Part shown: positions 1,372 to 23,938 of the stretch, one piece after another
Position numbering within the stretch: the stretch's first letter is position 1
How the letters are laid out: each line of letters opens with the position of its first letter
Source of the DNA: Rhizorhapis suberifaciens
Lineage (GTDB): Bacteria; Pseudomonadota; Alphaproteobacteria; Sphingomonadales; Sphingomonadaceae
Length of the DNA stretch: 64,000 nucleotides
Assembly (NCBI RefSeq): GCF_014200045.1
Contig: NZ_JACHOV010000011.1
Coordinates: forward strand, 1-64,000
Direction of reading: 5' to 3'
Notes under the pieces: model-generated
Seen by the model: the letters and a program-made list of their open reading frames with translations, nothing else
What the model was told of the DNA's origin: nothing
Database searches by the model: none
Translations under genes and position numbers: made by a program

Positions 1372-1704
1372 CTAGGACACGGCCTGCAATCCCTTGCGCT
1401 GGATAATGGACAGCAATCGCAAGGCGGGGCCGCCTGGACGCTTCACGCCGCGCTCCCAATCGGACACCAGATTGCGCGATACGTTGAGATAGGCTGCGAA
1501 TACCGGCTGCGAGACATGCTCGCGCTCGCGGATCGCGCGGATTTCATCGCCCGCCAGCACCGGGGCCGGGGCAAGACACGCCTCGTCAAACGTGCGGAGC
1601 GTCGCGCGCGACACCACTCCCGCGTCATGTGCGTCGCTCATCATTTCGTGGATCGCGCCCGCGATCTCGCTGCGATAGCCCTTATCCTTCGTCGTCGTTG
1701 CCAT
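1372..1704 (-). CDS. HigA-type antitoxin, XRE-family helix-turn-helix
   Basis: This 110-residue protein has a C-terminal helix-turn-helix at about residues 52-100 (IRAIREREHVSQPVFAAYLN followed by SRNLVSDWERGVKRPGG). That is the arrangement of antitoxins that bind both their toxin and their own promoter. It overlaps the toxin gene by 23 nt and lies second in the operon, the toxin-first order typical of higBA. The likely role is neutralising the HigB-like toxin and repressing the pair through the palindrome at 2100-2116. The exact subfamily is inferred. Confidence 0.8.
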   Translation of the reverse strand: MATTTKDKGYRSEIAGAIHEMMSDAHDAGVVSRATLRTFDEACLAPAPVLAGDEIRAIREREHVSQPVFAAYLNVSRNLVSDWERGVKRPGGPALRLLSIIQRKGLQAVS

Positions 1705-22022: not shown

Positions 22023-23405
22023 ATGACCCACAATTTCCATCCTACTTCCCTCCGCGAATATGACATTCGGGGCATAGTGGGAGAAACGCTGACCGAAAGG
22101 GATGCCTATGCCATTGGCCGAGGATTTGGCACGCTGATCGTGCGGGCGGGGGGTAGCCGGGTGGCCATTGGTTATGACGGGCGTCTAAGCTCCCCTACCC
22201 TGGAAGATGCACTGGTCGAGGGGCTGAACGCCAGCGGCGTGCATGCTGTGCGAGTCGGAATGGGGCCGACGCCGATGCTATATTATGCCGAAGCGGTGCT
22301 GGACGTTGATGGCGGCATCCAGATAACCGGCAGCCATAATCCCGCCAATTATAATGGCTTCAAAATGGTGTTTCAGCACGGTCCATTTTTCGGCGCCGAC
22401 ATTCAGAAACTGGGGCAAATGGCCGCGGCCGGCGATTGGGTCGAAGGTACGGCGGGATCGGAAAGCGTCGATATCATGAACCGCTATGTCGAGCGGCTTG
22501 TCCAGGATTTTGACGGAGCCGCCTATCGTGTCGGCTGGGACGCCGGCAATGGTGCGGCGGGACCAGTTGTGGAGAAGCTCGTCAAGCTGCTCCCGGGAGA
22601 GCATCATCTGCTTTTCACCGATGTGGATGGAAATTTCCCCAATCATCACCCTGACCCCACTGAAGAGAAGAATCTGGCCGACCTTCGGGCGCTTGTCGCG
22701 GAAAAGAACCTCGACTTTGGACTAGCCTTTGATGGCGACGGCGATCGCATAGGCGCGATCGACGGCGAAGGGCGGATCATCTGGGGCGACCAGCTTCTGT
22801 CGATCCTGGCGGAGCCGGTCCTGAAAGAGGTGCCTGGGGCGACGATCATTGCCGATGTGAAGGCCAGTCAAGCGCTCTATGACCGGATATCCGAGCTGGG
22901 CGGCGCCCCGTTGATGTGGAAGACAGGTCACAGCCTTATCAAGTCCAAAATGAAGGAAACCGGTAGCCCGCTCGCTGGCGAAATGAGCGGGCACATCTTC
23001 TTTAAGCATCAATATTATGGCTTTGACGATGCCATCTATGCGGCGGTGCGGTTGATCCGAGCTGCTACTACCTTGGGCAAGAGCGTGACCGAACTGCGCG
23101 GCAGCATGCCTGCCATGGTGAATACGCCCGAAATGCGGTTTCAAGTGGATGAAAGCCGCAAATTTGCCGTGATAGACGAGGTTCTGGCGCGGCTGAAGGC
23201 GGATGGGGCGCAGGTGAATGACACGGACGGCGCGCGGGTCAACACGGCCGATGGCTGGTGGCTGCTTCGGGCATCCAACACACAGGACGTGCTGGTCGCC
23301 AGGGCCGAAGCAAAGGATGAAGCCGGACTCGAACGGCTCATGGCCCAGATCGACGGCCAGCTGGCTTTGTCGGGATTAAAGCGTGGAGCGCAGGCGAGTC
23401 ATTGA
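22023..23405 (+). CDS. pgmG: Phosphoglucomutase/phosphomannomutase
   Basis: A 460-residue alpha-D-phosphohexomutase. The phosphoserine loop [16 protein letters not shown] (about residues 99-114), metal loop [12 protein letters not shown], sugar loop GEMSGHIFF and phosphate-binding loop [17 protein letters not shown] are all present. It interconverts hexose 1- and 6-phosphates for surface polysaccharide and nucleotide sugars, as for PgmG in sphingan-producing sphingomonads. The symbol is by analogy; no exopolysaccharide cluster is adjacent. Confidence 0.92.
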
Positions 23406-23519
23406 GCAATCACCTTATTTTTAAATTCCGGAAGGCAGTATTCCCTAGCGTAAATCGCTCAGTTGCATTTTGTGCAAACCGGCATCCTTATTTCGCAATT
23501 GCAAATATAGCTGCTGCGC

Positions 23520-23590
23520 TGCACAAGGAACCTGCCTTTCAGGCATCCTCTCCTAAAACTTTATGCCGCCCTTCGGGGCGGCTTTTTTTT
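23520..23590 (+). ncRNA. Candidate small RNA, copy 1, with its own terminator
   Basis: The unit contains a short hairpin (TGCC-TTTCA-GGCA), then the unpaired pyrimidine-rich ATCCTCTCCTAAAACTTT. It ends with a GCCGCCC-TTCG-GGGCGGC stem and eight T residues. The CCTCTCCT stretch is complementary to Shine-Dalgarno sequences. A nearly identical unit lies 287 bp downstream while the flanks differ. The layout resembles Hfq-type alphaproteobacterial sRNAs such as mmgR/suhB, but membership cannot be confirmed here. The 5' end is approximate. Confidence 0.65.
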
Positions 23591-23637
23591 GGTCATCGTT
23601 GTGAACTGCAGGGGCTGACCTAAGGAGGTTTTGGTTC

Positions 23638-23685
23638 ATGGTTCAGCCAAACCCTTTGGATTCAGACAATATTAATTGGGACTGA
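23638..23685 (+). CDS. Possible 15-residue micro-ORF between the sRNA copies
   Basis: ATG at 23638 opens a short frame encoding MVQPNPLDSDNINWD. AAGGAGGT stands about nine bases upstream, an unusually strong ribosome binding site for this window. The start codon lies within a possible TTTGG/CCAAA hairpin. No family is recognised. It could be a leader peptide, a micro-protein or chance. Confidence 0.3.
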   Translation: MVQPNPLDSDNINWD

Positions 23686-23806
23686 ACGAAAAGTAGCCGG
23701 AAGCCGGATGTCCGGAAATTGGAACGGCATCTACCGTGTCAGATGGGGAAAAATGACATTTTCTAAAAAGAAGTGCATTTTGTTCTTGCGAAAACATTTA
23801 TTGCAG

Positions 23807-23877
23807 TGCACAAGGAACCTGCCTTTCAGGCATCCTCTCCTAAAACTTTCACGCCGCCCTTCGGGGCGGCTTTTTTT
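23807..23877 (+). ncRNA. Candidate small RNA, copy 2, with its own terminator
   Basis: From TGCACAAGGAACC through CTCTCCTAAAACTTT the sequence is identical over 43 nt to copy 1. Only the two or three bases before the terminator stem differ, and the run ends in seven T residues. Upstream regions share only a loose TGCATTTTGT element (23466 and 23774 areas), which may be part of the promoters. Conservation of exactly the hairpin, anti-SD stretch and terminator argues for a functional RNA. Confidence 0.65.
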
Positions 23878-23938
23878 CGGATAGCTTCCCTCGTCTGTTC
23901 GTTGTTGCCCTATCGCAATGGTAATAATGGAGAGTGAA

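Follow-up and report, generated by a model that had tools for sequence, protein, structure and literature searches.

To our knowledge, αr8 small RNAs (sRNAs) occur in nearly all Alphaproteobacteria, where they link carbon storage with nutrient uptake. In Sinorhizobium meliloti, the family member MmgR limits PHB storage. When the family was first reported, it was taken for a likely antisense RNA (PMC1273637). In S. meliloti, mmgR is repressed by PhaR, which binds its promoter (PMC12542648). In Caulobacter, the siblings SisA-D repress TonB receptors and hppA with the help of Hfq, a common 10-mer pairing with the ribosome binding site (PMC12559287). In Sphingopyxis, SuhB acts with Hfq to repress thnR, and its level goes up along with PHB and growth rate (PMC6563040). 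The regulatory logic proposed below is known from another RNA family: AbcR1 of S. meliloti and its neighboring LysR regulator LsrB/VtlR (PMC8844928). In the open papers, no LysR-type regulator was found for αr8 RNAs and no dedicated activator was named, an absence that is weak evidence of novelty.

The window analyzed here is a stretch of 64,000 nt, for which the first-pass annotation had proposed tandem twin sRNAs with an anti-Shine-Dalgarno (anti-SD) core and had suggested a covariance-model comparison with mmgR/suhB. That comparison was positive and the proposal proved right. The Rfam covariance-model search matched two + strand units with a spacing of 287 nt, 23527-23597 and 23814-23885, to RF00519 (suhB/mmgR, αr8) at 49.8 and 44.7 bits (E-values of 2.9e-7 and 6e-6, respectively), both exceeding the curated gathering score of 41 bits. 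RF00519 and tRNA were the only families matched over threshold in the window, and AbcR was not among them. The twins are tandem αr8-family (RF00519; suhB/mmgR/SisA) sRNAs of about 60 nt, a kind of RNA already known. From the family match and the fold, twin 1 was placed at 23528-23590 (+), its 5′ end being uncertain within about 23528-23535, and twin 2 at 23815-23877 (+). As had been noted from the letters, the two share an identical stretch of exactly 43 nt (TGCACAAGGAACCTGCCTTTCAGGCATCCTCTCCTAAAACTTT), which spans the whole pairing region, and both end in the terminator GCCGCCCTTCGGGGCGGC with 7-8 T behind it. In twin 1, a 5′ mini-hairpin GCCTTTCAGGC (23534-23544, +), with little or no variation among 27 aligned copies, is followed by the anti-SD core CCTCTCCT (23547-23554, +) and an intrinsic terminator (23565-23590, +) whose position is kept across the family; in twin 2, the core CCTCTCCT lies at 23834-23841 (+) and the terminator at 23853-23877 (+). 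The proposed layout of mini-hairpin, unpaired anti-SD run and strong terminator in each unit was borne out by folding: both folds were far more stable than shuffled sequences (z of -3.76 for twin 1 and -4.23 for twin 2, with 0 of 200 dinucleotide shuffles as good), and the CCUCUCCU stretch was unpaired in the predicted folds of both. The DNA around the units had been called unrelated, which does not hold throughout: a 101-nt stretch that includes the promoter is 74% alike between the twins, and both have a PhaR-like box and the same -35/17 nt/-10 geometry. Similarly, from the proposed extent of 23520-23877 the units were retained, but not the start, as the relevant region begins further upstream with an operator at 23463-23477.

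Aligned αr8 promoters have a predicted -35 TTGCRN, then 17 nt, then a -10 CACAAR or CATA. Ahead of twin 1, the conserved box TTTCGCAATTGC (23491-23504, +) contains the putative -35 TTGCAA (23499-23504), and a PhaR-type box CTGCTGCGCTGCACAAG (23511-23527, +) overlaps the -10 CACAAG (23522-23527) and agrees exactly (17/17) with the palindrome YTKNTGCRNYGCANMAR, the Ralstonia consensus for PhaR (PMC12849132). Ahead of twin 2, the -35 TTGCGA (23786-23791, +) stands 17 nt from the -10 CACAAG (23809-23814), over which lies the PhaR-type box TTATTGCAGTGCACAAG (23798-23814, +), with 13 of the 14 specified palindrome positions and one mismatch. A PhaR box of at least 12/14 was present at one offset in 29 of 66 Sphingomonadaceae αr8 copies, with 0.2 expected, and part of this conservation may reflect the core promoter because the box overlaps the -10 CACAA. 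The box was absent from the remaining αr8 copies of the genome, those on C3 and C2. The genome has a PhaR gene (C10:26820) and carries two PhaR palindromes in the region separating phaC from a phasin gene. Since the PhaR gene was found in 145 of 150 genomes, its presence does not discriminate and was rejected as a test; in the few αr8 copies retrieved from PhaR-negative genomes, good PhaR boxes were missing. A sigma-54 promoter was rejected by eye, the GG/GC pair at the right spacing being missing. Transcription of the twins would thus be expected from the core promoter (-35 TTGCRN, 17 nt, -10 CACAAR), and because the PhaR-type box overlaps it, PhaR would probably repress both twins until PHB granules draw it off.

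Upstream of the twin 1 promoter lies operator 1, TTGCATTTTGTGCAA (23463-23477, +), a TTGCA-N5-TGCAA motif with a T-N11-A dyad that we propose as the site of a LysR-type activator. This motif occurs at six sites in the 3.36-Mb genome, and three of the six lie exactly 64 nt upstream of αr8 copies. An operator of at least 8/10 was found at 57 of 66 distinct Sphingomonadaceae αr8 copies, nearly always at one distance (-71/-72 from the hairpin). About 1.6 were expected from shuffles, a figure that counts related copies as independent and therefore overstates the significance, while the genome-wide count is independent of kinship. This predicted promoter switch, common to αr8 genes across Sphingomonadaceae, is what is new here, together with the LysR-type regulator that probably controls it and with its absence from twin 2.

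A GcvA-like LysR gene (C2:159487-160362) is divergent from the αr8 copy at C2:160546 of the same genome (G000). Its protein scored 192 bits against a GcvA cut-off of 288 and is GcvA-like at a score well below that cut-off. Among the 30 best LysR loci in Sphingomonadaceae, 22 had an αr8 RNA that is divergent from the LysR gene and at most about 200 nt away. In a survey of 150 genomes, 124 carried both αr8 and the LysR gene, 17 neither, 9 only αr8 and 0 only the LysR gene (Fisher, 3e-16, related genomes being treated as independent); all 17 genomes without an αr8 match were thus also without the regulator. In the complete LysR-negative genomes G006, G013, G054, G102, G135 and G145, an operator of at least 8/10 was found at no αr8 copy. 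In G100, a perfect operator stood beside a diverged LysR gene (about 34% identical). These co-occurrences suggest that a GcvA-like LysR regulator probably controls the αr8 operator. The operator may, on the other hand, belong to a different global regulator, either an NtrC-like protein or a further LysR protein, in which case the adjacent LysR gene would be a hitch-hiking neighbor. NtrC activates S. meliloti mmgR, as cited in PMC8844928 and PMC12542648, and in two genomes, G094 and G136, the operator was present and the LysR gene was not found, in fragmented assemblies 94% and 77% complete. We consider this explanation unlikely, because twin 1 shows the layout of LysR-type promoters, in which a T-N11-A dyad, here centered near -64, is joined by another conserved box at -35, and because the LysR gene is divergent from αr8 in most of the best loci and absent where αr8 is absent. 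An NtrC site was rejected on the known consensus, whose half-site spacing does not fit. The LysR-type promoter layout was not found at twin 2, and the divergent LysR gene adjoins the C2 copy, not the twins.

Further operators were observed at the LysR loci themselves: in L244 and L253, one precedes the LysR gene without an adjacent αr8 RNA, and in L251 and L261, a second one lies nearer the LysR start. Autoregulation of the LysR gene at loci with their own operators is possible. A fourth well-placed TTGCA-N5-TGCAA operator of the genome, C1:205786-205800 (L090 near 1501-1700, reverse strand), near adk, precedes a short unit with a reading frame of 27 aa (MRIALYGAVGLVSVAVNVLTYSTVLFA) and a terminator of its own; the unit is possibly another target of the same LysR regulator.

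Upstream of twin 2, the operator was absent, the best score being 6/10, which is chance level. The twin pair of G001, the sister genome and sole further representative of the genus in the survey, showed the same asymmetry, with an operator on one twin only, and so did the unlinked pair of G028. Operators were found on both copies in the G037 pair and, more weakly and in part, in the G059 pair. The identity of the whole pairing region in both twins would be expected if the twins were purely redundant and only raised the dose under identical control, close to the redundant or dose-additive action that the first-pass annotation had mentioned; the operator on twin 1 alone, recurring in G001 and G028, makes this improbable in our judgment. 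Given that twin 2 is without the upstream operator and that the promoters differ, different inputs to the twins appear at least as likely as pure redundancy. Judged from promoter sequence, the signals that induce the two identical RNAs probably overlap only in part.

The twins sit between a phosphomannomutase/phosphoglucomutase gene (22023-23405, +; Pfam) and an Lhr-type helicase gene. Twin 1 begins about 120 nt behind the former on the same strand. The closest named relatives of this phosphomannomutase gene are from Sphingobium; it is 90% identical in G001, which also has a twin pair behind it, and five other Sphingobium loci (L006, L007, L008, L033 and L036) have a single αr8 copy behind the same gene. 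Four clear αr8 copies were counted in the genome, namely, the twins, C3:162557 and C2:160546. The core ATCCTCTCC was invariant in 27 of 27 aligned αr8 copies. When each copy's terminator was folded individually, the stems comprised 75 distinct arms among 97 copies with the pairing kept (at least 6 bp in 90 of 97). That the units only duplicate the terminators or 3′ ends of longer mRNAs, such as phosphomannomutase read-through, and have no RNA function of their own, was the outcome that the first-pass annotation had set against its reading; it was rejected as highly improbable, for although a strong terminator closes each unit and twin 1 closely follows a gene on its strand, conservation resides in the promoter at its fixed distance, the 5′ hairpin and the anti-SD core, the terminator arms vary freely, other αr8 copies have different neighbor genes, and the family is seen as short transcripts elsewhere (the 61-nt SuhB of Sphingopyxis, PMC6563040). 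With a conserved promoter, mini-hairpin, anti-SD core and terminator of its own in each unit, the twins therefore look like independent genes.

Two other elements were seen during this analysis. Between the twins (window 23620-23685), a 15-codon reading frame at 23638, MVQPNPLDSDNINWD, follows a perfect AAGGAGG; a functional small ORF of 15 aa was rejected here, as the similarity of the spacer to the G001 spacer was not beyond that of shuffles. A fifth, weak match in the genome, C1:335316-335392 (-) (L005; also L089 in G001), is a short RNA with a CTCCTCCC stretch that scored 36 bits against suhB, below the cut-off, and carries an RpoH-like promoter (CTTGAAAC...CCTATCT). It looks like another kind of RNA, which we take to resemble the CcsR/cuckoo kind.

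Targets in this genome were sought by pattern matching only. GGAGAGG-N1-7-ATG was found at 74 places versus 18 for the reversed pattern, an excess that is in part ordinary SD bias, GGAGAGG being close to an ordinary SD; some of the 74 places precede only tiny reading frames. The best single target candidate is the TonB-dependent receptor gene at C2:25543 (L212), whose ribosome binding site AGGAGAGGAU is a perfect 10-mer complement of the sRNA core. The H+-pyrophosphatase gene hppA (C2:312802) was also among the 74, having surfaced in the pattern search before its Caulobacter role was looked up; as one match among 74 places, it lends modest support. Phasin mRNA showed weak complementarity only (by eye) and is not claimed as a target. 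Each twin is predicted to be expressed and to act in trans, very probably with Hfq, by pairing its CCUCUCCU core to GGAGAGG-type ribosome binding sites and so lowering translation. The likely targets include the TonB-dependent receptor and hppA, whose counterparts in Caulobacter are under SisA repression. Twin 1 alone would in addition be under the TTGCA-N5-TGCAA operator, with the LysR protein of C2:159487-160362 as the proposed activator binding there.

We put the probability of this whole explanation, namely, tandem αr8 anti-SD repressors linked to PHB through PhaR, with a LysR input on twin 1 only, at roughly 80%. With somewhat less assurance, we favor the broader reading that the αr8 sRNAs of Sphingomonadaceae form a regulon of their own under a co-evolving GcvA-like LysR activator, and that here tandem duplication freed one twin from it and left PhaR control in place, in which case each of the identical RNAs would stand for a metabolic signal of its own. 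The LysR regulator, which co-occurs with αr8, adjoins one copy and has a predicted operator at one distance on most copies, is a directly testable candidate. Moreover, the tandem pair with an operator on one twin offers a natural test of whether sRNA duplicates persist because they raise the dose or because they take separate inputs.

Compared with known systems, OmrA and OmrB of Escherichia coli, as described in PMC12559287, are likewise sRNA siblings encoded in tandem within a single intergenic region, and they repress outer-membrane receptors, but they have no sequence relation to the twins, and both respond to one regulator. AbcR1 and AbcR2 of S. meliloti work alike, being tandem homologous anti-SD sRNAs of which one is under the next-door LysR regulator LsrB/VtlR and the other is not (PMC8844928); AbcR, however, is a different RNA family, and the LsrB consensus GCAT-N3-TG-N3-T differs from TTGCA-N5-TGCAA. 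SuhB of Sphingopyxis granuli TFA shares the family name and the order with the twins and is a 61-nt Hfq-dependent repressor; the accessible part of its description (PMC6563040) mentions neither a tandem pair nor a regulator, and thnR, which it targets, serves tetralin degradation specifically. MmgR of S. meliloti belongs to the same Rfam family, with the short 5′ hairpin, unpaired anti-SD core and terminator, and its promoter has a PhaR-type box, as in the twins. S. meliloti has one αr8 copy, whereas this genome has four clear copies including the tandem pair, and the TTGCA-N5-TGCAA operator on most Sphingomonadaceae copies sets them apart from MmgR. SisA-D of Caulobacter crescentus are, as here, several αR8 siblings with a common anti-SD 10-mer, and their targets include TonB receptors and hppA, the gene types predicted as targets in this genome. 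The Caulobacter siblings were reported without a common promoter motif (PMC12559287), whereas three of the four siblings found here have one operator at one distance.
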